DNA of 64,000 bases from Morinoia aosen (taxonomy: Eukaryota; Arthropoda; Malacostraca; Amphipoda; Talitridae), in assembly GCA_030386875.1 (NCBI GenBank), contig CM059575.1, positions 18,562,293-18,626,292 on the forward strand, given 5' to 3'. The translations under genes and the position numbers were made by a program. Each line of letters opens with the position of its first letter. The stretch's first letter is position 1. The notes under the pieces are model-generated. The model made no database searches. It worked only from the letters and a program-made list of their open reading frames with translations, and was not told the DNA's origin. This document shows positions 17,990 to 64,000 of this stretch, piece after piece.

Positions 17990-18500
17990 CACTGCTGCGC
18001 CTCTTATTTCTCGTGCTTTTGTTGCTGCTCCTTTTTTTCTCGTGCTTTTCTTGCTGCTCCTTTTATTTCTCGTGCTTTTGTTGCTGCTCCTTTTTTTCTC
18101 GTGCTTTTGTTGCTGCTCCTTTTTTTCTCGTGCTTTTGTTGCTGCTCCTTTTATTTCTCGTGCTTTTGTTGCTGCTCCTTTTATTTCTCGTGCTTTTGTT
18201 GCTGCTCCTTTTATTTCTCGTGCTTTTGTTGCTGCTCCTTTTATTTCTCGTGCTTTTGTTGCTGCTCCTTTTATTTCTCGTGCTTTTGTTGCTGCTCCTT
18301 TTTTTCTCGTGCTTTTGTTGCTGCTCCTTTTATTTCTCGTGCTTTTGTTGCTGCTCCTTTTATTTCTCGTGCTTTTGTTGCTGCTCCTTTCATTTCTCGT
18401 GCTTTTGTTGCTGCTCCTTTTATTTCTCGTGCTTTTGTTGCTGCTCCTTTTATTTCTCGTGCTTTTGTTGCTGCTCCTTTCATTTCTCGTGCTTTTGTTG
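17990..18500 (+). repeat. 30-bp minisatellite, homogeneous core
   Basis: About 17 head-to-tail copies of a 30-bp unit (29 bp where the A of 'TTTTATTT' is missing). Each contains CTCGTGCTTTTG followed by TTGCTGCTCC and a T-rich end. Copies are nearly identical; the main variation is TTTTATTT / TTTTTTT / TTTCATTT. Because 30 is divisible by three and the unit lacks stop codons, frames stay open for 185-295 codons on both strands. Reading all frames open in parallel argues against protein coding. Confidence 0.95.
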
Positions 18501-18845
18501 TTTAAAAGCTACTCATATTTCTTGTTTTTGTTTGCTGCGTCTCTTATTCCTCGTGATTTTGTGGTTGCTGCTGTCATTTCCCGTGCTTTTATTTTTGCTG
18601 CTTCCATTTTTTGTGTTTCTGTTCATATTGCTGCTCTAATTTCTTGTGCTTCTGTTGCTGTTGTTGTTCTTTCTTTCTGTGCTTCTGTTGCTGTCCTTTC
18701 CGTTTCTTGTGTTTACGTTGCTGCTGTTTTTATTTCCTGCTTTTCGTTGTTACTTCAGCTGTTATTTCTTTCTGTGCTTCTGTTATTGGTGCTTTTCGTT
18801 TTTCTTATGCTCTTTCTGCTGTTACTTTTTTTAGTTTTGATGCTT
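18501..18845 (+). repeat. degenerate continuation of the 30-bp minisatellite
   Basis: After 18500 the same motif continues at about 30-bp spacing with many substitutions: 'TTGTGCTTCTGTTGCTG', 'TTTCTGTGCTTCTGTTGCTG', 'TTTCGTTTTTCTTATGC'. The gradient from nearly identical core to decayed flank is what unequal exchange produces when only the centre keeps being homogenised. A further diverged patch lies at about 19826-19890. Confidence 0.75.
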
Positions 18846-21105: not shown

Positions 21106-22085
21106 CGCCATGCTGTGCTCCTGGCCGCCTCGTGCTGTGCTCCTGGCCGGGCGCCTCGTGCTGTGCTCCTGACCGGGCGTCTCGTGCTGTGCTCCTGACC
21201 GAACGCCTCGTGCTGTGCTCCTGGCCGGGCGCCTCGTGCTGTGCTCCTGGCCGGGCGCCTCGTGCTGTGCTCCTGACCGGGCGCCTCGTGCTGTGCTCCT
21301 GGCCGCCTCGTGCTGTGCTCCTGGCCGGGCGCCTCGTGCTGTGCTCCTGGCCGGGCGCCTCGTGCTGTGCTCCTGACCGGGCGTCTCGTGCTGTGCTCCT
21401 GACCGGGCGCCTCGTGCTGTGCTCCTGGCCGGGCGCCTCGTGCTGTGCTCCTGGCCGCCTCGTGCTGTGCTCCTGGCCGGGCGCCTCGTGCTGTGCTCCT
21501 GGCCGCCTCGTGCTGTGCTCCTGGCCGGGCGCCTCGTGCTGTGCTCCTGGCCGAGCGCCTCGTGCTGTGCTCCTGACCGGGCGCCTCGTGCTGTGTTCCT
21601 GGCCGGGCGCCTCGTGCTGTGCTCCTGGCCGGGCGCCTCGTGCTGTGCTCCTGACCGGGTGCCTCGTGCTGTGCTCCTGGCCGGGCGCCTCGTGCTGTGC
21701 TCCTGGCCGGGCGCCTCGTGCTGTGCTCCTGACCGGGCGCCTCGTGCTGTGCTCCTGGCCGCCTCGTGCTGTGCTCCTGACCGGGCGCCTCGTGCTGTGC
21801 TCCTGGCCGGGCGCCTCGTGCTGTGCTCCTGGCCACCTCGTGCTGTGCTCCTGGCCGGGCGCCTCGTGCTGTGCTCCTGGCCGGGCGCCTCGTGCTGTGC
21901 TCCTGGCCGGGCGCCTCGTGCTGTGCTCCTGGCCGGGCGCCGTGCTGTGCTCCTGGCCGCCTCGTGCTGTGTTCCTGGCCGCCTCGTGCTGTGCTCCTGG
22001 CCGGGCGCCTCGTGCTGTGCTCCTGGCCACCTCGTGCTGTGCTCCTGGCCGCCTCGTGCTGTACTCTTGGCCGCCTCGTGCTGCC
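21106..22085 (+). repeat. GC-rich 26/22-bp minisatellite
   Basis: About 39 copies of a unit built on CTCGTGCTGTGCTCCTG. Two length classes are mixed. The 26-bp unit ends GGCCGGGCGC; the 22-bp unit lacks four bases there, giving GGCCGC. A G/A change makes CTGGCCG or CTGACCG. Neither length is a multiple of three and no frame contains stops, which produces overlapping open frames of 250-390 codons on both strands. These are artefacts of the repeat. Edge units at both ends are more diverged than the middle. Confidence 0.95.
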
Positions 22086-22196
22086 GTCGTCCTGCCGTCC
22101 ACTCCAACTTATTGATTGATTCTGCGCATCGATTCGGGATTTGGGAGGCTGAGACTGTCATGTGGGCTGCTGTATCTCATTGACGTCTTGTGATGG

Positions 22197-23195
22197 GAGA
22201 CTAGGCCTGAGCCACCAGCACTGGGGACTAGCGCTGGGCCAACAGCACTAGGGGACTAGCGCTGGGCCAACAGCACTAGGGGACTAGCGCTGGGCCAACA
22301 GCACTAGGGGACTAGCGCTGGGCCAACAGCACTAGGGGGTAGCGCTGGGCCAACAGCACTAGGGGGTAGCGCTGGGCCAACAGCACTAGGGGACTAGCGC
22401 TGGGCCAACAGCACTAGGGGACTAGCGCTGGGCCAACAGCACTAGGGGACTAGCGCTGGGCCAACAGCACTAGGGGACTAGCGCTGGGCCAACAGCACTA
22501 GGGGACTAGCGCTGGGCCAACAGCACTAGGGGGTAGCGCTGGGCCAACAGCACTAGGGGACTAGCGCTGGGCCAACAGCACTAGGGGACTAGCGCTGGGC
22601 CAACAGCACTAGGGGACTAGCGCTGGGCCAACAGCACTAGGGGACTAGCGCTGGGCCAACAGCACTAGGGGACTAGCGCTGGGCCAACAGCACTAGGGGA
22701 CTAGCGCTGGGCCAACAGCACTAGGGGGTAGCGCTGGGCCAACAGCAGTAGGGGACTAGCGCTGGGCCAAGAGCACTAGGGGGTAGCTCTGGGCCAACAG
22801 CAGTAGGGGACTAGCGCTGGGCCAACAGCACTAGGGGGTAGCGCTGGGCCAACAGCACTAGGGGGTAGCGCTGGGCCAACAGCACTAGGGGACTAGCGCT
22901 GGGCCAACAGCACTAGGGGACTAGCGCTGGGCCAACAGCACTAGGGGACTAGCGCTGGGCCAACAGCACTAGGGGACTAGCGCTGGGCCAACAGCCCTCG
23001 GGGGGTAGCGCTGGGCCAACAGCACTAGGGGGTAGCGCTGGGCCAACAGCACTAGGGGACTAGCGCTGGGCCAAGAGCACTAGGGGACTAGCGCTGGGCC
23101 AACAGCACTAGGGGGTAGCGCTGGGCCAACAGCACTAGGGGACTAGCGCTGGGCCAAGAGCACTAGGGGACTAGCGCTGGGCTACCAGCAATGGG
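22197..23195 (+). repeat. 28/27-bp minisatellite
   Basis: About 36 copies of a unit containing ACTAGCGCTGGGCCAACAG and CACTAGGGG. A 27-bp variant reads GGGGGTAGCGC where the 28-bp unit reads GGGGACTAGCGC. Each unit carries the palindrome AGCGCT. The first and last units are the most diverged, with GCCACCAGCACTGG and GGCTACCAGCAATGG respectively. No long open frame crosses it. Confidence 0.95.
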
Positions 23196-23362: not shown

Positions 23363-24069
23363 ATATGGGGGGTGTGTTGTGTGTCGTGTGCATCGCATAG
23401 AAGTGTGCTGCTGGAATGCCAGCGCGGAGGTGTGCTTGTGCACTCGTGTGCAGATGTGTTTGTGAGGTGATGTGCCGATGTGTTCTTGAGAGCTGATTGG
23501 CTGGTGTGCTGGTGTGTTCTGGTGTGCTGATGTGCTAGTGTGCTGGTGGACTTGTGGGCTGGTGTGCTAGTGTGCTGGTGGACTTGTGGTCTGTTGTGCT
23601 GGTGGGCTGGTGTGCTGGTGTGTTCTGGTGTTCTGGTTTGCTGGTGTGCTGGTGCGCTGGTGGACTTGTGGGCTGGTGTGCTAGTGTGCTGGTGGACTTG
23701 TGGTCTGTTGTGTTGGTGGGCTGATGTGCTGGTGCGCTGGTGGGCTGGTGTTCTGGTTTGCTGATGTGTTCTGGTGTTCTGGTGTGCTGGTGTGCTGGTG
23801 GACTTGTGGGCTAGTGTGCTGGTGGGCTGGTGGACTTGTTGTGTGTTGTGCTGGTGGGCTTGTGTGCTGGTGTGCTGGTGGTCTGGTGTGCTGGTGTGTT
23901 GGTATGCTGGTGTGCTGATGGGCTGGTATGCTTGTGGGCTGGTGGGCTGTTGTACTGGTGGGCTGGTGTGCAGGTGTGCTGGTGGGCTGGTGGGCTGGTG
24001 TGCTAGTGTGCTGGTGTGCTAGTGGTCTGTTGTCCTGGTGGGCTGGTGGGCTGGTGGGCTGGTGTGCTG
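23363..24069 (+). repeat. GT-rich array of about 8-bp units with higher-order copies
   Basis: The core from 23497 consists of GCTGGTGT / GCTGGTGG octamers with GACTTGTGG, TTCTGGTGT and TCTGTTGT variants. A longer block beginning GGACTTGTGGGCTGG at 23548 recurs at 23662, so a 114-bp higher-order copy is present. Bases 23363-23496 are a more decayed GT-rich lead-in. The + strand has almost no C outside the CTG steps and many GGG/GG runs, especially GGTGGGCTGGTGGGCTGG near 24040-24062. Confidence 0.9.
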
Positions 24070-24121
24070 AAGCATCTCGCACTTGTCACAAAAGTCTGCA
24101 ATTTTGCGCCAAGTTGAAAGC

Positions 24122-25450
24122 CGTTGTGGGAGTGTCGTGGTGTTGTGGGAGTATAGTGGTGTTGTGGGAGTATAGTGGTGTTGTGGGAGTGTCGTGGTGT
24201 TGTGGGAGTGTCGTGGTGTTGTGGGAGTGTCGTGGTGTTGTGGGAGTGTCGTGGTGTTGTGGGAGTGTCGTGGTGTTGTGGGAGTGTCGTGGTGTTGTGG
24301 GAGTATAGTGGTGTTGTGGGAGTGTCGTGGTGTTGTGACAGTGTCGTGGTGTTGTGGGAGTGTCGTGGTGTTGTGAGAGTGTCGTGGTGTTGTGAGAGTG
24401 TCGTGGTGTTGTGGGAGTGTCGTGGTGTTGTGGGAGTATAGTGGTGTTGTGGGAGTTTCGCGGTGTTGTGGGAGTGTCGTGGTGTTGTGGGAGTGTCGTG
24501 GTGTTGTGACAGTGCCGTGGTGTTGTGGGAGTGTCGTGGTGTTGTGGGAGTATAGTGGTGTTGTGGGAGTGTCGTGGTGTTGCGGGAGTATAGTGGTGTT
24601 GTGGGAGTGTCGTGGTGTTGTGGGAGTATAGTGGTGTTGTGGGAGTTTCGCGGTGTTGTGGGAGTGTCGTGGTGTTGAGGGAGTGTCGTGGTGTTGTGGG
24701 AGTATAGTGGTGTTGTGGGAGTGTAGTGGTGTTGTGAGAGGGTCGTGGTGTTGAGGGAGTGTCGTGGTGCTGTGGGAGTGTCGTGGTGTTGTGAGAGTGT
24801 CGTGGTGTTGTGGGAGTGTCGTGGTGTTGTGAGAGTGTCATGGTGTTGTGGGAGTGTCGTGGTGTTGTGGGAGTGTCGTGGTGTTGCGGGAGTGTCGTGG
24901 TGTTGTGGGAGTGTCGTGGTGTTGTTGGAGTGTCGTAGTGTTGTGGGAGTGTCGTGGTGTTGTGAGAGTGTCGTGGTGTTGTGAGAGTGTCGTGGTGTTG
25001 TGGGAGTGTCGTGGTGTTGTGAGAGGGTCGTGGTGTTGTGAGAGTGTCGAGGTGTTGTGAGAGTGTCGTGGTGTTGTGGGAGTGTCGTGGTGTTGTTAGA
25101 GTGTCGTAGTGTTGTGGGAGTGTCGTGGTGTTGTGAGAGTGTCGTGGTGTTGTGAGAGTGTCGTGGTGTTGTGAGAGTGTCGTGGTGTTGTGGGAGTGTC
25201 GTGGTGTTGTGAGAGTGTCGTGGTGTTGTGGGAGTGTCGTGGTGTTGTGAGAGTGTCGTGGTGTTGTGAGAGTGTCGTGGTGTTGTGAGAGTGTCGTGGT
25301 GTTGTGGGAGTGTCGTGGTGTTGTGGGAGTGTCGTGGTGTTGTGGGAGTGTCGTGGTGTTGTGGGAGTGTCGTGGTGTTGAGGGAGTGTCGTGGTGTTGT
25401 GGGAGTGTCGTGGTGTTTTGGGAGTGCCGTGGTGTTGTAGGAGTGACGTA
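24122..25450 (+). repeat. 19-bp minisatellite
   Basis: About 70 copies of a 19-bp unit, GTGTCGTGGTGTTGTGGGA in one register. Common variants are GAGAG for GGGAG and AGTATAGTGG for AGTGTCGTGG. The GTATAG variant is concentrated in the first half (24150-24720) and absent from the second, so the array has at least two subdomains. Nineteen is not a multiple of three, and the 513-codon minus-strand frame across it results from absence of stops in all registers, not from coding. Confidence 0.95.
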
Positions 25451-28400
25451 GGTCGTAGAAGTGTCGTGTAGGACTTATCACGTGAGAGAGTGAGAGAGGT
25501 ACAATGGCACAGAGTGGCATTTCGTTTCTTCTGAAGAGAGGCAATGGATTGAATGTTGAATTTAAGCAGCTAGCTATGACTGCCTTCGGATGCCCCTAAG
25601 ATGACCAAAAGCTCCACACCGCAGGCATTGCTGCAGTACTGCCGTGCTACGAGTGAGGTTTGTGCTTCATTAAATAGCCACAGAGCTAATTTGTGCGCCC
25701 AATCACTCAAGGATTGCAACGCAAGCAGCAACAACTATTGCACCACTGAAGCTCAATACTGCATCTTTCATCCCTCATCTTCTGCTCGCCCAATTCAATG
25801 AACGTTACTTCCACGCAACGCCAACGTGGCCTAAACTCCCCTCTGCCGCGCTATCACTTGACCTGGTCTGTCAAATTTTACTCTTTGTTCCCCTTCCCAT
25901 ACCCGTTCCCTGAACCAAATGAAGCCAAATGTTATTCCCTGCTCAGTCACCCTCCCAACTCGACTCTTCTCCCTTCCTCTGGTTTCCAGCAGTCAAATGA
26001 AGCCAAATCGGGGCCCAGAACGCCGCTCAGGCAGCGCTAGACGCATCCGTCGTAATCCCCAAGGATCGGGGGAGGGATTCATTTGCTCGCCAGTGTGCGA
26101 TGTGAGGGATTATTGCGTGTTCTCCTTAGCGTGGCGCTCCCTGCGACACGCTGCGCGAGGCGCTACAATGAGATGCTGGGGATTATTCTTCGCGCCTCTT
26201 AGTTGAGCGGAGAAAGGTTAATTGCGCCGTTAACTGGCGTGCAATGGAAGGGGCATATTTTTGTTTTGCTACAGTCCATACAAACGAGGTGAAGGTGAGC
26301 TACTCTGAGTTTAGAGGACTAACTTGTTATGCAGAAGTTGAAATTTGCCCTGCGCAATGCCAGTAAATCCAGCATGCTGTGCTGTGGTTTATGCTATATG
26401 ACCCATTTCAACACCTCAACTGTGCGTTAGCTCAAGCTCACCGCTCAAAAGGCACACCACCAAATGACGCCCATTGTACCAAACTGCATTCGCCGTCTCT
26501 AGCAAGACAACACAGAAGACTCGTCTTTATTATTCACGGCACGATCGTCTAACTGTCTAAACTTGCAGTCTCGTAGAGACCGTCTAATTCTCAGCACTTC
26601 ATAGTCAAGCGAAAGTTGCCAAAGTCTGCGGTGTTTTCCCTTAACATTTTGGTCGGCAGCTCCTCATGTCCAACTTGTTATACAACGACGGTCTTTTTTT
26701 GACGGCTTTTTGCCAAAGCATCTACGACTAAACTTATTGAAGACAGGCAGTTTATTAGTCCGCTCCAGACATAGCATTAAATTTGCGGGTAAATTTGAAG
26801 GAGTAATCATTTAGTTGTACTGAAGGAGACGGTCAGAATGTTGATTGAGGAGCCGAGTGCTCACCTTGACATCGTTGATCGAGCGATGTCAAGGTGGAAT
26901 CTCTTGCTAAACACTCAGCGTTACTTCTGCTTCTGACAAGCAAAATGAGAAATGCTATTACTGCGAAGGCCTTGCAGAGACATTCACATCTCATCTATTG
27001 TCGACAATGGAAATAATGTTTGTAGGGACATTTTTATGAGCAATTCGAATCTCATTAAGTTTATTTGGTGGTATACTCGGGAAAAAAAAGAAGTATTCGG
27101 AGGTCCATTGCGTCGAATATTTGCACATGAGTTCGTATAGTGATCACTGAAAGCCAATAGATGAGAAAGACACAAAAAATATGTTCATGAAACGTCAAAA
27201 ATTGTTATAGGGCCCGACCGGTGCAAACGTCAATCTTGGTTTTGATCATCGTAGGATGTGAAAAGTTTCTTACCGGACGTATGTGGGAGATATTTTTGTT
27301 TTAGTTAACTTGATTTCTCTGACCTTGAAACTGAATCTGTTATTTTGACTTCTGCGTTGCTAAAGCCTTTTTTCGTACGTAGGGGAATTCTTAATAATGG
27401 ATTCGATTAGCTCACTCCTGTAATTGGAATAAAAAGTTGTATCAACCCATTGAAGGTGAGGCGTTCATTCAACAAACAGAACATATAAGTGTAGGGACAG
27501 TTGCTCGAATGACTTGTGTAGGTTTGCCAGCCGTAAGCGTAGCCTGGACATCAGGTGCGGGTGCGCTGCCATCCGACAGCTGCGTTCCCTAACAACTCAC
27601 ACATATGGCGGTGTTAGGCCCTAATTAAAACTAATGCTCACAGCCTCTATTGTCTCAGTTAGTAGACTCTGCGTGACGTACGCATGCATACATTGGCCTT
27701 GTGTAATTTTGGTGCCTTGAATTGTACGACTGTGTGCTGAGCCTTGATAATCTTTGAGCTTCTCCAGTGCGAGGAGACGAACTGATAATTGTCCTCCAAC
27801 CATTAAATTCCTGATGTTTTGGAGCTGTGATGAAAGCCTAATCAAGCTGATCAAAGACAGCTCGTTCTCTGCTACGGATCAAAGGAGCTTAATTTTCATA
27901 TGAAAGCAACTGCTAGCCGTTGTAGTGTTCGCATGGGAAGGCAACAAAAATCGATGAAACTTATCTATTGAGAACAGTCAACTTCTTATGGCAACTATTT
28001 TAACACCCGTCCTAAACTCCGTTTTCAAATATTTATTTCTGTAGTCGGCGTTGTATAACATGGCTTTAAAACAAATCTTTTCACCTGTGTTGCACTCCCG
28101 CGTTGCACTGTTTGCGGTTGAGTAAGAAAGTGTTCTGTGTCCTAGCGATCAAGCTTCAGCCCGATTGAAAACAAAGGAAGGATGGTGCTGAAATCAGTTC
28201 ACTTGGGAGTTGAAATAGGATTTGTCAGTGCATTTCTTGCGAGCGCAGCATAGATTTTTATGATAATATCATGGTGTTAAACACATATTAAAGTGTTACA
28301 TGATTCTTTGTTAGTATATTGTGATAAAAGCCTTGCAGTGAAAAACGCACTCTGAAAAATTTCGACGCACTTACATATATGTCGTGGACGGTTATTCCCA

Positions 28401-41878: not shown

Positions 41879-44800
41879 CACGTGCTGCATAATGCAGGGC
41901 AGTACTGATCGAGTTGCTGCGTTATGCAGGGCAGTACTGATCGAGTTGCTGCGTTATGCAGGGCAGTACTGATCGCGTTGCTGCGCTATGTAGGGCAGTA
42001 CTGATCGCGTTGCTGCGTCATGCAGGGCAGTACTGATCGAATTGCTGCGTTATGCAGGGCAGTACTGATCGCGTTGCTGCGTCATGCAGGGCAGTACTGA
42101 TCGCGTTGCTGCATTATGCAGGGCAGTACTGATCGCGTTGCTGCGCTATGTAGGGCAGTACTGATCGCGTTGCTGCGTCATGCAGGGCAGTACTGATCGA
42201 ATTGCTGCGTTATGCAGGGCAGTACTGATCGAGTTGCTGCGTTATGCAGGGCAGTACTGATCGCGTTGCTGCGCTATGTAGGGCAGTACTGATCGCGTTG
42301 CTGCGTCATGCAGGGCAGTACTGATCGAGTTGCTGCGTTATGCAGGGCAGTACTGATCACGTTGCTGCGTCATGCAGGGCAGTACTGATCGCGTTGCTGC
42401 GTTATGCAGGGCAGTACTGATCGCGTTGCTGCGTTATGCAGGGCAGTACTGATCGAATTGCTGCGTCATGCAGGGCAGTACTGATCGAGTTGCTGCGTTA
42501 TGCAGGGCAGTACTGATCGAGTTGCTGCGTTATGCGAGGCAGTACTGATCGCGTTGCTGCGCTATGTAGGGCAGTACTGATCGAGTTGCTGCGTTATGCA
42601 GGGCAGTACTGATCGCGTTGCTGCGTTATGCAGGGCAGTACTGATCGCGTTGCTGCGTTATGCAGGGCAGTACTGATCGCGTTGCTGCGTTATGCAGGGC
42701 AGTACTGATCGCGTTGCTGCGCTATGTAGGGCAGTACTGATCGAGTTGCTGCGTTATGCAGGGCAGTACTGATCGCGTTCCTGCGTTATGCAGGGCAGTA
42801 CTGATCGAGTTGCTGCGTTATGCAGGGCAGTACTGATCGCGTTGCTGCGTTATGCAGGGCAGTACTGATCGCGTTGCTGCGTTATGCAGGGCAGTACTGA
42901 TCGCGTTGCTGCGTTATGCAGGGCAGTACTGATCGCGTTGCTGCGTTATGCAGGGCAGTACTGATCGAGTTGCTGCGTTATGCAGGGCAGTACTGATCGC
43001 GTTGCTGCGTTATGCAGGGCAGTACTGATCGCGTTGCTGCGTTATGCAGGGCAGTACTGATCGCGTTGCTGTGCTATGTAGGGCAGTACTGATCGAGTTG
43101 CTGCGTTATGCAGGGCAGTACTGATCGCGTTGCTGCGTTATGCAGGGCAGTACTGATCGCGTTGCTGCGTTATGCAGGGCAGTACTGATCGCGTTGCTGC
43201 GTCATGCAGGACAGTACTGATCGAGTTGCTGCGTTATGCAGGGCAGTACTGATCGCGTTGCTGCGTTATGCAGGGCAGTACTGATCGCGTTGCTGCGTTA
43301 TGCAGGGCAGTGCTGATCGAGTTGCTGCGCTATGTAGGGCAGTACTGATCGCGTTGCTGCGTTATGCAGGGCAGTACTGATCGAGTTGCTGCGTTATGCA
43401 GGGCAGTACTGATCGCGTTGCTGCGCTATGTAGGGCAGTACTGATCGCGTTGCTGCGTTATGCAGGGCAGTACTGATCGCGTTGCTGCGCTATGTAGGGC
43501 AGTACTGATCGAGTTGCTGCGTTATGCAGGGCAGTACTGATCGCGTTGCTGCGTTATGCAGGGCAGTACTGATCGCGTTGCTGCGTTATGCAGGGCAGTA
43601 CTGATCGAGTAGCTGCGTTATGCAGGGCAGTACTGATCGCGTTGCTGCGTTATGCAGGGCAGTACTGATCGCGTTGCTGCGTTATGTAGGGCAGTACTGA
43701 TCGCGTTGCTGCGCTATGTAGGGCAGTACTGATCGAGTTGCTGCGTTATGCAAGGCAGTACTGATCGCGTTGCTGCGTTATGCAGGGCAGTACTGATCGC
43801 GTTGCTGCGTTATGTAGGGCAGTACTGATCGCGTTGCTGCGTTATGCAAGGCAGTACTGATCGCGTTGCTGCGTTATGCAGGGCAGTACTGATCGCGTTG
43901 CTGCGTTATGTAGGGGAGTACTGATCGAGTTGCTGCGTTATGCAAGGCAGTACTGATCGCGTTGCTGCGTTATGCAGGGCAGTACTGATCGCGTTGCTGC
44001 GTTATGTAGGGCAGTACTGATCGAGTTGCTGCGTTATGCAAGGCAGTACTGATCGCGTTGCTGCGTTATGCAGGACAGTACTGATCGCGTTGCTGCGTCA
44101 TGCAGGGCAGTACTGATCGCGTTGCTGCGTTATGCAGGGCAGTACTGATCGCGTTGCTGCGCTATGTAGGGCAGTACTGATCGAGTTGCTGCGTTATGCA
44201 GGGCAGTACTGATCGCGTTGCTGCGTTATGCAGGGCAGTACTGATCGCGTTGCTGCGTTATGTAGGGCAGTACTGATCGCGTTGCTGCGTTATGTAGGGC
44301 AGTACTGATCGCGTTGCTGCGTTATGCAGGGCAGTACTGATCGCGTTGCTGCGTTATGCAGGGCAGTACTGATCGCGTTGCTGCGCTATGTAGGGCAGTA
44401 CTGATCGCGTTGCTGCGTTATGCAGGGCAGTACTGATCGCGTTGCTGCGTCATGCAGGGCAGTACTGATCGCGTTGCTGCGTTATGCAGGGCAGTACTGA
44501 TCGCGTTGCTGCGCTATGTAGGGCAGTACTGATCGAGTTGCTGCGTTATGCAGGGCAGTACTGATCGCGTTGCTGCGTTATGCTGCAGGGCAGTACTGAT
44601 CGCGTTGCTGCGTTATGTAGGGCAGTACTGATCGCGTTGCTGCGTTAGGCAGGGCAGTACTGATCGCGTTGCTGCGTTATGCAGGGCAGTACTGATCGCG
44701 TTGCTGCGGGATGTAGGGCAGTACTGATCGCGTTGCTGCGCTATGTAGGGCAGTACTGATCGAGTTGCTGCGTTATGCAGGGCAGTACTGATCGCGTTGC

Positions 44801-47062
44801 TGCGTTATGTAGGGCAGTACTGATCACGTTGCTGCGTTATGCAGGGCAGTACTGATCGCGTTGCTGCGTTATGTAGGGCAGTACTGATCGCGTTGCTGCG
44901 TTATGCAGGGCAGTACTGATCGCGTTGCTGCGTTATGCAGGGCAGTACTGATCGCGTTGCTGCGTTATGCAGGGCAGTATTGATCGCGTTGCTGCGTTAT
45001 GCAGGGCAGTACTGATCGCGTTGCTGCGTTATGCAGGGCAGTACTGATCGCGTTGCTGCGTTATGCAGGGCAGAACTGATCGCGTTGCTGCGTTATGCAG
45101 GGCAGTACTGATCGCGTTGCTGCGTTATGCAGGGCAGTACTGATCGCGTTGCTGCGTTATGTAGGGCAGTACTGATCGCGTTGCTGCGTTATGTAGGGCA
45201 GTACTGATCGAGTTGCTGCGTTATGCAGGGCAGTACTGATCGAGTTCCTGCGTTAGGCAGGGCAGTACTGATCGAGTTGTTGCGTTATGCAGGGCAGTAC
45301 TGATCGCGTTGCTGCGTTATGCAGGGCAGTACTGATCGCGTTGCTGCGCTATGCAGGGCAGTACTGATCGCGTTGCTGCGTTATGTAGGGCAGTACTGAT
45401 CGCGTTGCTGCGTTATGCAGGGCAGTACTGATCGAGTTTCTGCGTTATGCAGGGCAGTACTGATCGCGTTGCTGCGCTATGCAGGGCAGTACTGATCGCG
45501 TTGCTGCGTTATGCAGGGCAGTACTGATCGCGTTGCTGCGTTATGCAGGGCAGTACTGATCGAATTGCTGCGTTATGCAGGGCAGTACTGATCGCGTTGC
45601 TGCGCTATGTAGGGCAGTACTGATCGCGTTGCTGCGTTATGCAGGGCAGTACTGATCGCGTTGCTGCGTTATGCAGGGCAGTACTGATCGAATTGCTGCG
45701 TTATGCAGGGCAGTACTGATCGCGTTGCTGCGCTATGTAGGGCAGTACTGATCGCGTTGCTGCGCTATGTAGGGCAGTACTGATCGAATTGCTGCGTTAT
45801 GCAGGGCAGTACTGATCGCGTTGCTGCGCTATGTAGGGCAGTACTGATCGCGTTGCTGCGCTATGTAGGGCAGTACTGATCGAATTGCTGCGTTATGCAG
45901 GGCAGTACTGATCGCGTTGCTGCGCTATGTAGGGCAGTACTGATCGCGTTGCTGCGCTATGTAGGGCAGTACTGATCGAATTGCTGCGTTATGCAGGGCA
46001 GTACTGATCGCGTTGCTGCGCTATGTAGGGCAGTACTGATCGCGTTGCTGCGTTATGCAGGGCAGTACTGATCGCGTTGCTGCGTTATGCAGGGCAGTAC
46101 TGATCGAATTGCTGCGTTATGCAGGGCAGTACTGATCGAGTTGCTGCGTTATGCAGGGCAGTACTGATCGCGTTGCTGCGTTATGTAGGGCAGTACTGAT
46201 CGCGTTGCTGCGTTATGCAGGGCAGTACTGATCGCGTTGCTGCGTTATGCAGGGCAGTACTGATCGCGTTGCTGCGTTATGCAGGGCAGTACTGATCGCG
46301 TTGCTGCGTTATGCAGGGCAGTACTGATCGCGTTGCTGCGTTATGCAGGGCAGTACTGATCGCGTTGCTGCGTTATGTAGGGCAGTACTGATCGCGTTGC
46401 TGCGTTATGCAGGGCAGTACTGATCGCGTTGCTGCGTTATGCAGGGCAGTACTGATCGCGTTGCTGCGTTATGTAGGGCAGTACTGATCGCGTTGCTGCG
46501 TTATGCAGGGCAGAACTGATCGCGTTGCTGCGTTATGCAGGGCAGTACTGATCGCGTTGCTGCGTTATGCAGGGCAGTACTGATCGCGTTGCTGCGTTAT
46601 GTAGGGCAGTACTGATCGCGTTGCTGCGTTATGTAGGGCAATACTGATCGAGTTGCTGCGTTATGCAGGGCAGTACTGATCGAGTTCCTGCGTTATGCAG
46701 GGCAGTACTGATCGAGTTGCTGCGTTATGCAGGGCAGTACTGATCGCGTTGCTGCGCTATGTAGGGCAGTACTGATCGCAGCGCTGCGCTATGTAGGGCA
46801 GTACTGATCGCGTTGCTGCGTTATGTAGGGCAGTACTGATCGCGTTGCTGCGTTATGCAGGGCAGTACTGATCGCGTTGCTGCGTTATGCAGGGCAGTAC
46901 TGATCGCGTTGCTGCGTTATGCAGGGCAGTACTGATCGCGTTGCTGCGTTATGCAGGGCAGTACTGATCGCGTTGCTGCGTTATGCAGGGCAGTACTGAT
47001 CGCGTTGCTGCGTTATGCAGGGCAGTACTGATCGCGTTGCTGCGTTATGCAGGGCAGTACTG
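41879..47062 (+). repeat. 32-bp satellite, 162 units over 5.18 kb
   Basis: Head-to-tail units of 32 bp contain TTGCTGCG, then TTATGCAGGGCAGTACTG, then ATCGCG. Each typical unit carries CAGTACTG (an 8-bp palindrome, ScaI site) and GATC. Counting the GATC ends from 41910 to the last unit gives exactly 32-bp spacing throughout, except for one 3-bp TGC insertion near 44582. Variation is limited to a few positions: GCG/GAG/GAA after GAT-C, GTTA/GCTA/GTCA, and TGCAGG/TGTAGG. GCTA and TGTAGG occur together, defining a subtype. Because 32 is not a multiple of three and both strands contain stops, no open frame exists, so nothing is coded. No spacers separate the units, so it is not a CRISPR array. 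Confidence 0.97.
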
Positions 47063-48965: not shown

Positions 48966-49545
48966 TTCTGCTCCTCTGCCTCGGCAGGCGGTCGCCTCGC
49001 TCGTACTCGCCCTGCTCCTCTGCCTCGGCAGGCGGTCGCCTCGCTCGTACTCGCCCTGCTCCTCTGCCTTGGCAGGCGGTCGCCTCGCTCGTACTCGCCC
49101 TGCTCCTCTGCCTCGGCAGGCGGTCGCCTCGCTCGTACTCGCCCTGCTCCTCTGCCTTGGCAGGCGGTCGCCTCGCTCGTACTCGCCCTGCTCCTCTGCC
49201 TCGGCAGGCGGTCGCCTCGCTCGTACTCGCCCTGCTCCTCTGCCTCGGCAGGCGGTCGCCTCGCTCGTACTCGCCCTGCTCCTCTGCCTTGGCAGGCGGT
49301 CGCCTCGCTCGTACTCGCCCTGCTCCTCTGCCTTGGCAGGCGGTCGCCTCGCTCGTACTCGCCCTGCTCCTCTGCCTTGGCAGGCGGTCGCCTCGCTCGT
49401 ACTCGCCCTGCTCCTCTGCCTCGGCAGGCGGTCGCCTCGCTCGTACTCGCCCAGTTCCTCTGCCTCGGCAGGCGGTCGCCTCGCTCGTACTCGCCCTGTT
49501 CCTCTGCCTCGGCAGGCGGTCGCCTCGCTTCTACTCCCCTCAGGG
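48966..49545 (+). repeat. 44-bp minisatellite
   Basis: About 13 copies of a 44-bp unit containing CTGCTCCTCTGCC, then TCGGCAGGCGGTCGCC, then TCGCTCGTACTCGCC. The commonest variant is GCCTTGGC for GCCTCGGC. Forty-four is not a multiple of three and stops are absent, so three forward frames and one reverse frame stay open for 168-241 codons. That is a hallmark of a non-coding tandem array. The last unit ends TCTACTCCCCTCAG. Confidence 0.95.
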
Positions 49546-49599
49546 GGATACAACTATTGTTTCTATGGGAATTAGCGCTCCCATGGGAACCATGTGAGG

Positions 49600-49885
49600 G
49601 CCTAAGCTAATGGTTAGGTAGGCTTCTTTTTTGTTGTAATAAAATATGTTTTTGTTTTGTTACGGACCATTTTTTTCGGTTCACTGCTGTCCTGTTTTTC
49701 AGCACCTACTACTTTCTTCTTCAACTTTTTTCTTGTTTCATGAACTTCTTTCCTAGCTTACTGTTTCTGTGCACTTTGTGCATAGATTCCGCGTTCCCTC
49801 AACTCCATACTAAATGGTGCCTTCCTCTTTCCTCTCTTGGAAAATCTTTGTCGTGGTTAAGGGCGGCTAAAACTTTCTTACATAA
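49600..49885 (+). repeat. dispersed repeat family R1, copy C
   Basis: It matches the reverse complement of 28575-28880 over most of its length, with near-identical blocks around TTTTGTTTTGTTACGGAC and TTCTTCTTCAACTTTT, and matches 13430-13690 over its second half. It sits between the 44-bp array and a stray partial unit of that array at 49893-49916, as if it had inserted into, or been caught up in, the array. Confidence 0.7.
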
Positions 49886-49892
49886 TGATAAT

Positions 49893-49916
49893 AACTCGCT
49901 CGTACTCGCCCTGCTC
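49893..49916 (+). repeat. stray partial unit of the 44-bp minisatellite
   Basis: CTCGCTCGTACTCGCC followed by CTGCTCCTC reproduces the second half and start of the 44-bp unit, about 350 bp beyond the end of the main array. It directly precedes the 39-bp array and so links the two. Confidence 0.8.
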
Positions 49917-49951
49917 CTCAGCACGTTGGGCTGGTGGCGGCTCGGGGGGCA

Positions 49952-50795
49952 GTTGCTCCTGCTGCTGTTGTTGCGGCTACTGTTGCAGCTGTTCCTCCTG
50001 CTGCTGTTGTTGCGGCTACTGTTGCAGCTGTTTCTCCTGCTGCTGTTGTTGCGGCTAATGTTGCAGCTGTTTCTCCTGCTGCTGTTGTTGCGGTTACTGT
50101 TGCAGCTGTTGCTCCTGCTGCTGTTGTTGCGGTTACTGTTGCAGCTGTTGCTCCTGTTGCTGTTGTTGCGGCTACTGTTGCAGCTGTTGCTCCTGCTGCT
50201 GTTGTTGCGGTTACTGTTGCAGCTGTTGCTCCTGTTGCTGTTGTTGCGGCTACTGTTGCAGCTGTTGCTCCTGTTGCTGTTGCTTCGGCTACTGTTGCTG
50301 CTGTTGTTGCGGTTACTGTTGCAGCTGTTGCTCCTGTTGGTGTTGTTGCGGCTACTGTTGCAGCTGTTGCTCCTGCTGCTGTTGTTGCGGCTACTGTTGC
50401 AGCTGTTGCTCCTGCTGCTGTTGTTGCGGCTACTGTTGCAGCTGTTGCTCCTGCTGCTGTTGTTGCGGCTACTGTTGCAGCTGTTGCTCCTGTTGCTGTT
50501 GTTGTGGCTACTGTTGCAGCTGTTGCTCCTGCTGCTGTTGTTGCGGCTACTGTTGCTGCTGTTGTTGCGTTACTGTTGCAGCTGTTGCTCCTGTTGCTGT
50601 TGTTGCGGCTAATGTTGCAGCTGTTGCTCCTGCTGCTGTTGTTGCGGCTGCTGTTGCAGCTGTTGCTCCTGATGCTGTTGTTGCGGCTACTGTTGCAGCT
50701 GTTGCTCCTGCTGCTGTTGTTGCGGCTACTGTTGCAGCTGTTGCTCCTGCTGCTGTTGCTGCGGCTACTGTTGCAGCTGGTACTCCTGCTACTGT
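49952..50795 (+). repeat. 39-bp CTG/TTG-rich minisatellite
   Basis: About 21 copies of a 39-bp unit containing GTTGCTCCTGCTGCTG, then TTGTTGCGGCTACTG, then TTGCAGCT. A few units have internal deletions (near 50290 and 50555). Thirty-nine is a multiple of three, so frames reading poly-Leu/Arg, Ala/Val and, in antisense, Ala/Thr stay open for 290-313 codons. Several parallel open frames on both strands argue against a protein. Confidence 0.95.
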
Positions 50796-50810
50796 TATTG
50801 CAGTTACTGT

Positions 50811-51165
50811 TGTAACTACTGTTGCAACTCCTGTTAATTGGAGCTAATGTTGCAGCCACTGTTATTGGAGCTCATTTTGCAGCTACTGTTGCAGCTGTTA
50901 TGGAGCTCATACTGCAGCTACTGTTGCAGCTGTTATTGGAGCTTATACTGCAGCTACTGTTGCAACTGTTATTGAAGCTCATACTTCAGCTACTGTTGCA
51001 GCTGTTATTGAAGCTCATACTGCAGCTACTGTTGCAGCTGTTATTGGAGCTCATACTGCAGCTACTGTAGCAGCTGTTATTGAAGCTCATACTGCAGCTA
51101 CTGTAGCAGCTGTTATTGAAGCTCATACTGCAGCTACTGTTGCAGCTGTTATTGGATATCATGCT
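50811..51165 (+). repeat. 36-bp minisatellite related to the 39-bp array
   Basis: About 9-10 copies of a 36-bp unit: GTTATTGGAGCTCATACTG then CAGCTACTGTTGCAGCT. It shares CTACTGTTGCAGCTGTT with the 39-bp unit next door, so one array probably grew from an edge unit of the other. The first copies (50811-50890) are the most diverged. Confidence 0.9.
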
Positions 51166-57573: not shown

Positions 57574-59628
57574 TTGAGCGAGTTGTGTCTCTAGCATAAT
57601 GTTTCACTAACTTTTTTAATTTCTCATTATGTACCGTTTTAAATATTCATTGATGCGCGTAAAGTCAAGTTTTTCATTGCACAAAAGCAAAGACATGAGA
57701 AAAAGTCCGTGAGTATTTTTAAATGTGTATCCACAACAATTTGTTCTCTGCGACTACACGGTCATTGCCGTTGCTAGCTTTATGACAGGTTGACGAATAA
57801 TATTGTTCGGTGGGAAAATCGAAGAAATTTCCTTCATGAACTACCGAAATCTACGATACTCGGTTTTTTCTAATTTTCTTTCTCGTTAAGAGCTACTCAA
57901 AACGGGATATCGTTCAGTACGTACTTATCAAAATGTCATCACAACTAAAATTCAGGTCTTTTTTAATACAACTTTAACATTGGACTTCATTTTGTCGGTG
58001 AACTTGTTTTCAGGTTGCGATGTGGGCTTTGGTGGTTTGCTGTTTGATTTTGAGTCGGGCTTATCACTGTAGGTAACTCTTTAAACTATGTAGCAATTTA
58101 TTGCAGTTTTCTTACGTCCTTTTCTCTGACTTTGCTTGTCCTTATTTCCTTGCAGTAAGGGCTTACTTCATTCACCGTGTCACGAGACCAAGGGTCTCTT
58201 TTATGAAAAGGATTAGAGTTTGGTCTCGAGTGAGGAATTTAAACATCCCAAGTGAGGACAGAAGAATAGTGAAGAGTAAATGAAAAGGGTAGAGTAAAGA
58301 GGAAATAAAAAAGGAAGAAGGCCAATAGACACAGTAATAGGTGTGAACGATATGGACATATAACGAAATCGTAAAGTATTTTTATTCTGAGGACAGAGCA
58401 TAGAAAACAACATTTGAAGCGAGCTAAAAAATGGCAAGAAGGCAAAGTGAAATACGCAGTGCAAATGTAAACGTAAAGTGTGATGAGTGGAAACATCGAA
58501 CGTCTATGAAGCAATAAGCTCGATGGGCAGCGAAACGTGAGAGTTTTAACCCTCTTAAAATCAAAGAAGCCCTCTACCCTAAATACTACTGGCGGAACTG
58601 TTCTTGATGTTGAGCTGCACCGAGGACCTATTATATGAGTTTACAGTTCTATTTCTGAGTCACTAATAATTAGCACGTCCACAGAGAAATGCATAGCGCA
58701 CAGATCTCAAAACAATTTTCATGCTCTTAGTATAAAAGTGGCGGATATTTGGATGTTATTTACAGCATCTGATATTCATGATAACACGTTGGTCTGCTCT
58801 TGAAGAAATTTTTGTCGTGATCCTCTTCTTTTCATCGTTGCGCATGTATATTTCGAAATGTAATTTATTTCTTTTATCTGTCGTGACGTTTGATTACGCC
58901 ACTTTAATATATTTTTCTTTAATAAAGACGTGACTTTAATGTCCTCGCCTTGATTTTAATTGATGGATAGTCTGCCACCACCCTGTATTAGGGAAAATTA
59001 TTTTATTATGAAATCAATGAATTAACATGATTTGGTAACGTTTACATGCCTTCTATGCCTTGTCTCATCTTTCCAGAACACAGGAGAATAATACACTCTT
59101 GTGAACTACATGGGTAAATTTACTTCCTAGGAATTAATTGAACGCGCAATACAAATATTGGAGAATTTACTATATAAACTTCATTTGCTATACCTAAATA
59201 TATAACAGTGTTCTACGTACTGAGGTAATGATTCGGATTGGTTTTACATATGTCCCGATTACTAAATGAACAACTCATCTTAATTAAAGGAGAGGTGGAG
59301 AGGTGTGCTGCTCGAATCGTTACGGCTGAGACGCCGATCTGGCGTACCGAAGGCGCTGAATATACGATGCTGGCTTTCATGAATTTAGGTTGAGCCTATC
59401 TAATGAACAGATATTGCTTCTCAATATTAGTAGGTGAAAGTTCATGGCACTGGCACTAGATTCTCGTAGTCTGACACTCGAACAAGGTATTAGGACGACA
59501 TTGAATGTTTTTCTCAATAAGCCTGCGCCCTAAGGCGAGGGCAGCGGCCTCCCAGATGTCTCTCAGATGGAGTCGCGTGGCTTACTGACTCCTGTCGCTC
59601 GCTAGCTTGAAGTTCTGAACCGCACTCC
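57574..59628. other. anonymous intergenic sequence
   Basis: No gene is recognised. The + strand at 58200-58600 is purine-rich with several short interrupted frames and no domain I know. Confidence 0.4.
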
Positions 59629-59631
59629 TTA

Positions 59632-60597
59632 AGGGCCGTTTACACTGGTCTACATTTTGCTGCAGGCTCACGTGTAGACGCCTCGTGTGGAGCTTCACAA
59701 GAGCCATGTTCGTTTAGACTAGACACCATTGGATCGAGCCATGGAGCGCGCGCTGCTCAACAGGGCTGCCACTCTAGATATTATATAGCTAGATCTAGAT
59801 GTTTTTGCTGAAGCCTAGATGTAAAATTTTGAACCTAGATATTAGCTATAAAATCTATATAGTTTTTCTGTATGCTAGAAATTTTCTTGCTAGAATTACA
59901 ATTAAGCTATGTACATGATAGATTACTGTAAATTCAAATTAAGAATTCACCCTAATGGTTGGTTACTACTTCATTCTTATTATATTTGTTAATTTACTTA
60001 AGCAAATTGTCTGAATAGTGAAGCAACCATATTCTGATCATGTTATGTTCAGATTATGAATGACACCAAGACGGCTATTTCACGGTTCATAAGCTCAAGC
60101 ACACTATCTCCAATTGCAAAAAATAGTGATTATAAAAAAAATCATAAAATAAAATGCACATACATTATCAAGAATGTATTGTGACCTCATTTTGACGAAA
60201 GAATGACCAATGATATTGGTAACAATGAGTTCAGTTTATTGTTGGATGGAAGCAATGATATTACTATCATGAAACTACATGGTGTATCAGTTATATACTA
60301 AAGTAATGCATCTAATAAAGTAGAATTAACCTACTTAGTAATTGCAAAATTATTAAAAATGATGAAGGTAGCGGTGTGAAAGCCTTAAAACAATTGTTGA
60401 TAAGTAGGAATCTGAGCATTGATAATATGCAATGCAATAGAAACTGACCTTTCTACTCGCAAAACGTGTGGAATTGAAGAATATTTGGATGCCAAGCTTT
60501 ATTAGGGTAAATATCAGGATACTAAATAATTTATTCAAAGATAAATTGCCTAATATAAAGCAATTTATGATATAAATATCCTTAGATGCTATTGTTC
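59632..60597 (+). repeat. left arm of the long inverted repeat
   Basis: The arm runs from the AGGGCCG terminus to GATGCTATTGTTC. The other arm at 61117-62082 reads the same on the opposite strand, beginning GAACAATAGCAT. Differences are scattered substitutions plus a few 1-2 bp gaps, with no large block missing. Confidence 0.9.
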
Positions 60598-60731
60598 AAC
60601 TAATTTATTATAGTAGATAATTAATTTATTTCTAGATAAATTTTTGGATGTTTTATTTTTAAATCTATATGTTTCTCGATATTTTTTGAGGTCACACTAG
60701 ATTTTTTGGTTAAACACAAGTGGCAGCCATG
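59761..60731 (+). mobile_element. 971-bp internally deleted hAT element (left copy)
   Basis: CAGGGCTGCCACT at 59761 and AGTGGCAGCCATG ending at 60731 are inverted repeats matching at 12 of 13 positions. The eight bases before (CTGCTCAA) and after (CAGCACAA) agree at 6 of 8, as expected for an old 8-bp target duplication. CAG-type ends with 8-bp duplications are diagnostic of hAT transposons. Inside lies a piece of hAT transposase, and the C-terminal half of that gene is missing. The copy extends about 134 bp beyond the left arm into the centre, so this copy is complete at both ends while the right one is not. Confidence 0.65.
60147..60440 (+). pseudogene. hAT transposase fragment (left arm)
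   Basis: One frame from 60147 gives KCTYIIKNVL, a stop, PHFDERMTNDIGNNEFSLLL, then DGSNDITIMK. This matches the region around the first catalytic aspartate of hAT-family transposases, typically 'FSLLLDESTDIS'. A second block near 60363-60440 reads GSGVKALKQLLISRNLSI then DNM, like the family's 'ALKxLLxxxNIxxxNxxG' segment. The stop at 60181-60183 and absence of the rest of the protein make it a relic. Confidence 0.65.
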
Positions 60732-61116
60732 CAGCACAAAACCAGTCAGTGTTGCCTGCTGCTTTGAAATATGGATTGTTGTAGACGAGCTTGTGTGAAT
60801 ATTGTTGCTGCATCGTAGCTACGCAATCTCTTTTTTATTTGCATGAGAGTAATGTTACTATATTCGTTCATTTTCATTAAAATATAATGGAAAGCAGCCT
60901 CCTTATATTCACAGCTTTTAGTCTGCCAAAGGCATTGATGGGCTTAGTACATTTCAATTAAAAGCAGTGTAGTTTCTCGCAGTAGTGTTGAGTCAGCCAT
61001 TACGGGTGAGCGAGAGGCGCTACCTCACTTGATGACTATCAACCGCACACTGACCGGTCTAGAGCAGCGCCGCTCACACGTGCAGCCGCTCCACGGATTC
61101 AAACAAAGCGAATCGG
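60598..61116. other. central segment of the inverted-repeat element
   Basis: The first 134 bp finish the left hAT copy; the remaining 377 bp (60740-61116) are unlike anything else in the window. A 99-codon frame starting at 61029 crosses from here into the right arm and reads the antisense of the hAT fragment, so it is not a gene. Confidence 0.6.
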
Positions 61117-62082
61117 GAACAATAGCATATAAGGATATTTATATCATAAATTGCTTTATATTAGGCAATTTATCTTTATATGAATTATCTAGTATCCTGG
61201 TATTTACCCTAATAAAGCTTGTATCCAAATATTCTTCAATTCCACACGTGTTGCGAGTAGAAAGGTCAGTCTCTATTGCATTGCAAATTATCAATGCTCA
61301 GATTCCTACTTATCAACAATTGTTTTAAGGCTTTCACACCGCTATCTTCATCACTTTTAATAATTTTGTAATTGCTAAGTAAGTTGATTCTACTTTATTA
61401 GATGCATTACTTTAGAATATAACTGATACACCAAGTAGTTTCATGATATAAATATCATTGCTTCACTCCAACAATAAACTGAACTCATTGTTATCAATAT
61501 CATTGGTCAGTCTTTCGTCAAAATGAGGCCACAATACATTCTTGATAATGTATGTGCATTTTATTCCATGATTTTTTGATATCATCGCTAGTTTTGCAAT
61601 TGGAGATAGTGTGCTTTACCTTATGAACCGTGAAATAGCCGTCTTTGTGTCGTTCATAATCTGAACATAACATGATCAGAATATGGTTGCATCACTATTG
61701 AGACAATTAGCTCAAGTAAATTAACAAATATAATAAGAATGAAGTAGTAACCAACCATTATGGTGAATTCTTAATTCGAATTTACAGTAATCTATCATAT
61801 ACTTAGCTTAATTATAATTCTAGCTAGAAAATTTCTAGCATGCTGAAAAAACTATATAGGTTTTATAGCTAATATCTAGGTTCGAAATTTTACATCTAGG
61901 CTTCAGCAAAAACATCTAGATCTAGCTATATAATATCTAGAGTGGCAGCCCTGTTGAGCAGCGCGCGCTCCATGGCTCGCTGCAATGGTTTCTAGTCTAA
62001 ACGCGCATGGCTCTTGTGAAGCTCCACACGAGGCGTCTACACGTGAGCCTGCAGCAAAATGTAGACCAGTGTAAACGGCCCT
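61117..62082 (-). repeat. right arm of the long inverted repeat
   Basis: This is the inverse copy of 59632-60597. The hAT part occupies 61117-61953 in minus orientation. It has the CAGGGCTGCC end and the same TTGAGCAG junction as the left arm, but lacks the opposite terminus, so the copy is cut at the arm boundary. The shared junction shows that the hAT insertion predates the inverted duplication. Confidence 0.9.
61284..61565 (-). pseudogene. hAT transposase fragment (right arm)
   Basis: The minus strand repeats the fragment seen at 60147-60440. Here the codon that is TGA in the left arm is TGG, while a TGA has arisen next to the catalytic-aspartate position (61438-61448). Each arm therefore carries a different disabling change and the two have drifted independently since duplication. 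Confidence 0.6.
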
Positions 62083-62085
62083 TTA

Positions 62086-64000
62086 GTGAGTTGCAGCGCC
62101 GCTCCCTCGCTTTCAGTGGACACCCACCAGTGCGAGCGGTATGGAACCCGTCCTCTTGCAGCTCAGTATCAATGATCACTGTACCAGCCACCTCGCGAGC
62201 ACACGGTTTGATGCCGCCATGACGTTATAAAAACCACTCTACCATACCACCGTCGTAATAAAAACAGTTTTTTCTATGGATCCTTTTAAAAATTTTTAGT
62301 GTATCTCCATATGTGAGTTTTTTTTACCACAATATATTACTCATTAGCTAACTTATTGATTTTGGAGGCATTGTATGGGTGGAGACATCACTTTCTTTGT
62401 CACAACGTGTTTGATATTGCAGTGCTCATTCGAAGGATATAATTAAAATTAATGAGTGTATTCGTTTTATTGAAACCTCCTGTTTTGTGATAAATATTTT
62501 CATTGGTAAAATAAACTGGAAGCCATTCACGGGCAATTCCCGCGATACAATGCTTGTTAAGACTGTTTCATAACCATTCCGACAGAAGTTTGTCGAGATG
62601 CAAACACCATTAAAAATTTTTACTTGAAAATAATCTGCAAGGGGTAAAGAATTAGTGCTACTGCTTGATTAAATTGATGTCAAAAGTGTACGAAAAGGAG
62701 TGGTAATTGCACGTAGCTATTTTTGCCAAGAACTATCGAAGAAAATATTTGGGCGGCGATATTTAAGAGCGCAAATGGGGCGTTGGGAGGGAGCGGCGGC
62801 CCTCGTTAGCCCGGAAATATGTTCAAATGTCTTCCTCGTTGCAGCGCTGCACCTCCTCGAAAATGTAAAATTTTATTTAGAGTCGCTTGCAGGGCCCGAA
62901 AGTATGCATTTCTTCCTAGCACGGGCTCGTGAACTTCAGGGCTGCGAATTTATTAACTTGCAAATTTTTGAACGAAGAAGGAGTCGGAATAAGAATAAAA
63001 AGCTTTTCGATCAATATAATAAAAGCTAAACATTGAACTAGGGAGTCAGTAAGAATTAAATTTAGGTCACTGATCCGCGCATGAGCTGTCACAAAATTGT
63101 TTTGAAAGCCTTGATTACTCAGTGGTTAACATTCAGTACCTATGATCCAGAGTTTGGTCAACAGAAAGCTCGCCCTGCTGCACTTTCTACGAGTCATTCT
63201 GCTCTGGCTTGGCGTTATCACCGAGTGTTTTTCATTCACAGCTTGGCCAGAACTTAAGAAGTTCATCCCACAATCTCAACATTGCAACTTCGAAGATGCA
63301 GTGACGGCGCTTGTGGCTCAATGTTATCAGCGCCTCCTGACGCTCTCCTGTAGCCTGACCCAAGTACTGAGGCTGCGTCTCGCGTGGAGGTCTATAGATT
63401 TTTGAAATGTGCAAGTCTAAGCCCTTTCCCTCCGTGTGCACATATGCATTTTAACTCCAACTGCAAATAACCAATCTCATATTATTGATACAAATTGCTC
63501 TCAAGAGTCATTAAATACCACTTAACACATTTTGAAATAGTTTGAAATTATTTTAATTTTAAATGCTCCCCATACATCAATGACTACATACCGTTTTTTT
63601 GAGACATTTTCAACAAGATTTCCTGCCATAAAGCATCTCGTAACGAGACGAGTAGAAATCGGTGCAGCAAGGAGGTGGAACTGAAAGACTGTTCCTGCAA
63701 CTGAACTTGTCAATACTGCCTACCGTGTTATTGCAGCACACGGTTTTCACCGTTCAGTTGTTTACTGCTCATTGTTATACGGTCGTGAAAGTCTCGGCTG
63801 TCTTGCTCTTTTTGCTCTGCTGAACAAAAAATTTAAGGGGTCTCTCACACTTTGTGTCCTCGATGTTGTCACGGTGCAAAAATCTGCGTTTTCGAGCCGG
63901 GGAATTTGGTGAGGACCATCTCACCCGGAGCTTTTAGGGGATATTTTACGAGGCGCGCTAGAGCAGCCATCGCGAGACTCCCTCATTTTTGATCACGACC
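62086..64000. other. anonymous intergenic sequence
   Basis: No gene is recognised. A 109-codon frame at 62700-63029 and an 87-codon frame at 63142-63405 have no domain I know. The last 150 bases are GC-richer but otherwise featureless. Confidence 0.4.

Follow-up and report, generated by a model that had tools for sequence, protein, structure and literature searches.

A palindrome of two inverted transposon parts in Morinoia aosen DNA, its probable origin as a deletion scar, and the composite family behind it

The palindromic locus and its flanks

The window, by which we mean the whole analysed stretch of 64,000 nucleotides of Morinoia aosen DNA, contains a long palindrome whose two arms (59632-60597 and 61117-62082, 966 bp each) are 94% identical in inverse orientation (Table 1). 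Alignment of positions 59624-60597 with 62091-61117 reversed gave 977 columns, 917 of them identical, with 55 mismatches and 5 gap columns, and the differences are spread evenly along the length, at 3-10 per 100 columns. An arm match of such length is far beyond chance, and the inverted arms reported in a preliminary description of this DNA are thus real. The same description had placed a hAT-like insert at one and the same junction in both arms, and indeed CTGCTCAA/CAGGGCTGCC is found in each of them, at 59753-59770 and, reversed, at 61944-61961. It was also right that, of the two copies of the insert, the left one alone possesses both termini (CAGGGCTGCCACT at 59761 and AGTGGCAGCCATG at 60719-60731), as the right arm terminates at the equivalent of position 60597.

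Table 1. Features of the palindromic locus and its flanks (positions in the window)
Feature	Positions	Strand	Basis or remark
Older repeat R, left part; resumes at 62085	58224-58807	+	R copies; 58747 to ~58807 by eye
Repeat LF, apparently inserted in R, cut at 59628 by element A	58808-59628	+	LF copies
TTA target site, left of element A	59629-59631	.	Sequence and family target-site comparison
Element A, member of the family, 5' end onward	59632-61120	+	Final ~100 bp of the standard ~1594-bp copy missing
5' end of element A, 129 bp	59632-59760	+	Starts with terminal inverted repeat AGGGCCGTTTACAC
Target-site duplication (8 bp) left of the hAT-like insert	59753-59760	+	Insert-free relatives
hAT-like insert, non-autonomous, complete in element A, 971 bp	59761-60731	+	Both ends present
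Broken reading frame within the insert (MNDTK...FSLLLDGSNDI...)	60056-60376	+	Pfam and PDB, without a hAT match
Right target-site duplication of the insert, 2 of 8 bases changed	60732-60739	+	Comparison with the left copy and relatives
Remnant of host element interior	60740-61116	+	Fetched loci
Weak MADF/Myb-SANT-like frame in the interior	60824-60961	-	PF10545, below the Pfam cut-off
GAAC microhomology, joint of elements A and B	61117-61120	.	Overlap of A-type and B-type matches
Element B, second family member, inverted	61117-62082	-	5' end to about position 966
TTA target site, outer side of element B	62083-62085	.	Sequence and family target-site comparison
Repeat R resumes	62085-62188	+	R copies

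The palindrome is bordered by two different repeats, which we call LF and R. LF lies on the left, and the part of it from 58805/58813 to 59420-59429 matches copies L079-L082 at 87-95%, while R is old, with 67-85% identity between copies; queries with LF and R gave 41 and 37 matches, respectively. In all six fetched LF copies (L059-L064) the repeat continues beyond the insertion point of the palindrome, and two of them (L059 and L064) have TTA exactly there; this continuation was not found in the window at an E threshold of 1e-3. R, in turn, appears on both sides. Positions 221-730 of its copy L068 correspond to window 58224-58747 (70%), and position 898 onward corresponds to 62085 onward (83%). 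The preceding part of R is collinear at window 58196-58747, that is, on the far side of LF, in L065, L068 and L070, three of the six copies fetched; on this left side L066 and L069 have shorter pieces and L067 has none. That the collinear match was seen in three of six copies slightly lowers our confidence in the two-insertion and deletion reading that is set out below. The stretch of R missing between its two parts amounts to 167 bp of L068 by BLAST ends, or to about 115 bp when R is followed by eye to ~58807. Most simply, LF would be nested in R and element A in LF, while element B would lie in R on the right-hand side of LF.

Elsewhere in the window there is a satellite array at 41883-47062 (32-bp unit, 161.8 copies, 94% matches), and dense minisatellite arrays, most with units of 8-44 bp, occupy 17993-18749, 21111-23190, 23500-25468 and 48968-51156. 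A Pfam search with ten window frames gave one weak match only. The frame at 17112-17519 on the minus strand weakly matches PF16506 (E 8.5e-4 at 20 bits, against a cut-off of 30), which stands for a putative insect-virus virion glycoprotein. Neither an Rfam search nor a search of viral contigs for the exact end pattern gave a useful result. The letters of the 5' end also occur at 2657-2669, but this candidate for a further copy was rejected, as no TWA precedes it and the 129-bp query matches 13 bases only.

The composite family and its hAT-like insert

We searched a genome of 1,990,973,590 bases in 29 contigs with the 129-bp 5' end of element A, as the preliminary description had suggested, and the best 40 of 1334 candidates all matched at 98-100% over the full 129 bp. 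Twenty loci (the window and 19 others, 6-7 kb each) were fetched from these 40, a sample which is biased towards insert carriers because it was drawn from the best matches. In all 20 of them the insert comes immediately after the 5' end, and the interior, whole or in part, comes next, several copies being interrupted or shortened. The junction of 5' end and insert is present at 754 places genome-wide when up to 3 mismatches are allowed, while a control pattern gave 0.

A standard copy reads, in order, TWA, the 129-bp 5' end, the 971-bp insert, the interior remnant, the 3' end and TWA again, its 3' terminus being TGTAAACACCCCT followed by TTA or TAA. Both ends are present in 18 copies (L010-L028), of which 15 measure 1565-1596 bp and the others 1892, 3391 and 3833 bp. 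Identical TTA or TAA stands at both sides in 14 of these 18; the target-site duplication is not identical in L019, L024, L025 and one copy in L021. The terminal inverted repeats (AGGGCCGTTTACACTGG versus AGGGGTGTTTACACTAG) extend imperfectly over about 50 bp in the one copy compared, L016.

Such a target site, together with the inverted ends, would fit a PIF/Harbinger element. According to PMC2836001, PIF/Harbinger elements make a 3-bp duplication, and their mobilisation depends on two proteins, the Myb-like ORF1 protein and the transposase. The minus-strand frame in the interior matches PF10545 (MADF) with E 0.0096 and 16.7 bits, below the Pfam cut-off of 22, and two unrelated Pfam families nearly equal it on the same frame (E 0.02 and 0.051); as a trace of a Myb-like ORF1 this frame is suggestive only. 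The family is like non-autonomous, Tourist-like PIF/Harbinger elements in its 3-bp TTA/TAA duplication, its terminal inverted repeats, its high copy number and its weak MADF/Myb-SANT-like trace, but differs from them in carrying a hAT-like passenger of 971 bp and in that the MADF match stays under the cut-off.

The ends of that passenger (CAGGGCTGCCAC...GTGGCAGCCATG) we take to resemble hAT ends, and its frame at 60056-60376 presumably resembles a hAT transposase. When this broken frame, from the window arms and three other copies, was compared with Pfam and PDB, no hAT family was found and only unrelated matches appeared, at E 0.18 or worse. The missing transposase match is weak evidence, the insert being short and decayed. 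We therefore file the insert as hAT-like, not as proven hAT, an assignment suggested by its ends, its target-site duplication and the corresponding empty site.

The last two points come from relatives of the family. A query joining the two flanks of the insert was spanned across the join, at 81-88%, by 39 of the best 40 of 1681 candidates, the remaining one being the window. Eight insert-free relatives (L071-L078) were fetched from these flank-join matches. Five of them have a simple empty site, L074, L076, L077 and L078 reading CTGCTCAAAACC and L075 reading CTGCTCAAAATC. Carriers show CTGCTCAA-insert-CAGCACAA at this place, while the 8-bp empty site is GCTGCTCAAAACC in the former four and GCTGCTCAAAATC in the latter; this comparison supports a duplicated 8-bp target site for the insert, two bases of the right copy having changed.

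The other three relatives, L071-L073, are the three best flank-join matches, and they share with copy L016 a CACC segment which is absent from L074-L078. L072 and L073 read CTGCTCATTGCACAA and L071 reads CTGCTTACTGAGCACAA, so that the right target-site copy's own letters are kept; in detail, L072 and L073 have CTGCTCAT/TGCACAA, and L071 terminates in GAGCACAA, a pattern read from three relatives only. With letters of both target-site copies present, these three look like hAT excision footprints. They would fit the pattern of Ac/Ds footprints (PMC5873905), in which bases beside the cut are turned to their complement, but an exact pattern for footprint-type copies occurs only once genome-wide. 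The three footprint-like relatives lie, in assembly G000, on C21 at 76923200-76924200 (L071), on C18 at 27672195-27673195 (L072) and on C16 at 16102570-16103570 (L073). Compared with non-autonomous hAT elements, the insert is alike in its 8-bp target-site duplication and in the matching empty site of relatives, three of which may also carry excision footprints; it is unlike them in that Pfam and PDB do not recognise its broken frame, and in that the copies studied sit within a host element.

Given the 754 junctions and the empty sites in relatives, the hAT-like insert was acquired once, in the ancestor of the whole family. The preliminary description thus correctly held that the hAT insertion came first and did not occur independently in each arm, but the event belongs to the history of the family, not to that of this locus.

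Origin of the palindrome

Both halves of the palindrome are members of the family described above, and we compared them over 964 columns with the consensus of 43 other copies. Element A departs from this consensus at 32 sites and element B at 23, and none of the 55 departures is common to both. Fifteen of those in A are each common to 9-19 other copies and none of these is present in B; six of those in B are common to 5-17 other copies, again with none in A. Among 44 copies ordered by likeness to A, B comes 26th, and in the corresponding order for B, A comes 42nd of 44; 103 of 990 copy pairs are less alike than A and B.

A query of positions 61077-61157, across the joint between the halves, was matched in full by the window alone among the best 40 of 1198 candidates; the other 39 scored joint matches cover either query positions 1-44 (15 matches, to A-type copies) or 40/41-81 (24 matches, to B-type copies). 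As these overlap at GAAC, the four bases are common to both sides. By calculation, about 1.6% of random joints would show a microhomology of at least 4 bases by chance. From the 3' side of element B about 630 bp are absent, and with them the right end of its insert.

We are thus highly confident that the locus is a one-off, the scar of a deletion that joined two tail-to-tail members of a PIF/Harbinger-like, hAT-carrying family. Two members of this high-copy, non-autonomous family, A and B, would have inserted independently, near each other and in opposite orientation, A landing at a TTA within LF and B at a TTA within R, about 115 bp past LF. A single deletion at the 4-bp GAAC microhomology, probably by microhomology-mediated end joining, would then have taken the last ~100 bp of A, the rest of LF, a stretch of R and the ~630 bp of B's 3' side, so that the remaining 5' parts of both now stand back to back and form a palindrome. 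The family membership of both halves, their separate marker sets, the two host repeats, the missing sequence between them and a microhomology joint which none of the other scored matches spans are all read directly from the locus and its copies. One microhomology-mediated deletion is favoured because it accounts for the joint and for the flanks together; a single event of loss, end joining as its cause, and the order of the two insertions are what we infer. The fused locus is the allele seen, and the pre-deletion allele is reconstructed from it. The arrangement expected before such a deletion does exist elsewhere: in locus L010 two complete copies stand tail to tail with 203 bp between them, which counts in favour of this model.

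What counts against two insertions is the direct TTA at both sides, which is also expected from a single one. The preliminary description had called these TTAs duplications, and although both are present where it placed them, the term is misleading, as on the evidence the two belong to different insertions. With either TTA or TAA as target (among 22 5' flanks, TAA is found in 13 and TTA in 9), they would be the same by chance about half the time.

On one hand, a single insertion might be saved by assuming that there was only element A, and that gap repair exchanged its 3' part for the 5' part of another member, copied from elsewhere in the genome. This would account for the differing marker sets of A and B as well as for TTA on both sides, and for P elements PMC4168063 describes defective copies that arise when gap repair is aborted or switches template. 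On the other hand, it leaves unexplained why the LF continuation and a stretch of R beside the element are lost and why the right flank is R, not LF, so that an extra, exactly placed deletion would be needed. We consider gap repair very improbable, although it survives better than any other alternative to the deletion scar.

In the model of the preliminary description, a hAT-like element would have entered a single element at one end, whereupon a reversed copy of this end arose on the other side. The insert is at the same base in both arms, which are 94% alike, and TTA stands on both sides. However, a copied arm must carry the departures of its source, and here 0 of the 32 + 23 departures are common; the 15 left-arm markers shared with other copies are absent from the right arm, the junction is family-wide (754 places), and flank sequence is missing. 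The marker test excludes the copying of one arm from the other, but this is all it does, as an absence of common departures is not rare (279 of 990 copy pairs), and it dates no insertion. We see next to no chance for an inverted duplication of one arm.

Nor is there much to be said for a new foldback family, in which the palindrome would be mobile as a unit by means of its two 5'-end copies. Two palindromes with identical spacing are indeed present on contig C6, among the first 100 of the 754 places, but this pair (L083 and L084) is 99.9% identical over all 5121 bp including the flanks, so that it represents one locus copied by inverted segmental duplication. Moreover, the joint of the window is spanned by no other of the best 40 of 1198 candidates. 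Copies that are without the palindrome inside their borders, as asked for in the preliminary description, do exist: in the 19 other regions fetched, the 3' end of 18 copies is an ordinary one and differs from that of the window. With its halves in two different repeats and the intervening sequence lost, the locus is not a single TTA-flanked foldback element, and we regard such a family as scarcely credible. A nesting of element B within element A, as in the C6 pair, was likewise rejected, as the right flank of B is R and not the 3' end of A. An assembly artefact, with one arm a false mirror of the other, is just as implausible: palindromes are a known source of misassembly, but a false mirror should be nearly identical, whereas these arms differ by 6%, evenly spread, which speaks against it, as do their different marker sets and flanking repeats.

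Clustered copies and the meaning of the composite family

A neighbouring family member was found in three of the 19 other fetched loci (within 6-7 kb), namely L010, L018 and L021. Such clustering is above expectation, with P of about 1e-4 if 1334 copies are assumed and 2e-5 with 754. The pair in L018 is head to head, about 180 bp apart, and the members in L021 are in tandem, 3-9 bp apart. In G000, the inverted segmental duplication on C6 extends over 5.1 kb at 209602-214722 (L083) and 8048302-8053422 (L084); its palindrome consists of one family member nested inside another, and that of the window is of a different kind. Further inverted pairs may occur beyond the first 100 of the 754 places.

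With its long inverted arms and short middle, the locus is like Foldback or long-inverted-repeat elements such as Galileo, but its arms are two insertions, and a standard member of the family is without long arms. It is also like clustered and nested MITEs, of which the DcSto elements of carrot, lying near or inside members of their own family, are an example reported in PMC3695323: here too the family has neighbours in three of 19 other loci, but in the window a deletion has, in addition, fused the pair. An element that convincingly looks like a "foldback" can thus arise without a transposition mechanism of its own, through clustering within a family and a deletion between tail-to-tail copies.

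The palindrome, which was the finding as first posed, is therefore ordinary. The more notable object is the composite family with its hAT-like passenger, which merits annotation; this composite of about 1.6 kb, PIF/Harbinger-like with a hAT-like passenger, is to be masked as one consensus, not as separate hits. From the relatives without the insert and the copies that resemble footprints, the history of the nested transposon can be read. One tentative reading, which we put forward as possible rather than probable, is that a PIF/Harbinger-like element took up a hAT-like one, reached at least 754 places together with it, and sometimes lost its passenger by hAT-type excision. If this is true, one element could be mobilised at each of two nested levels, the two transposases involved being unrelated.
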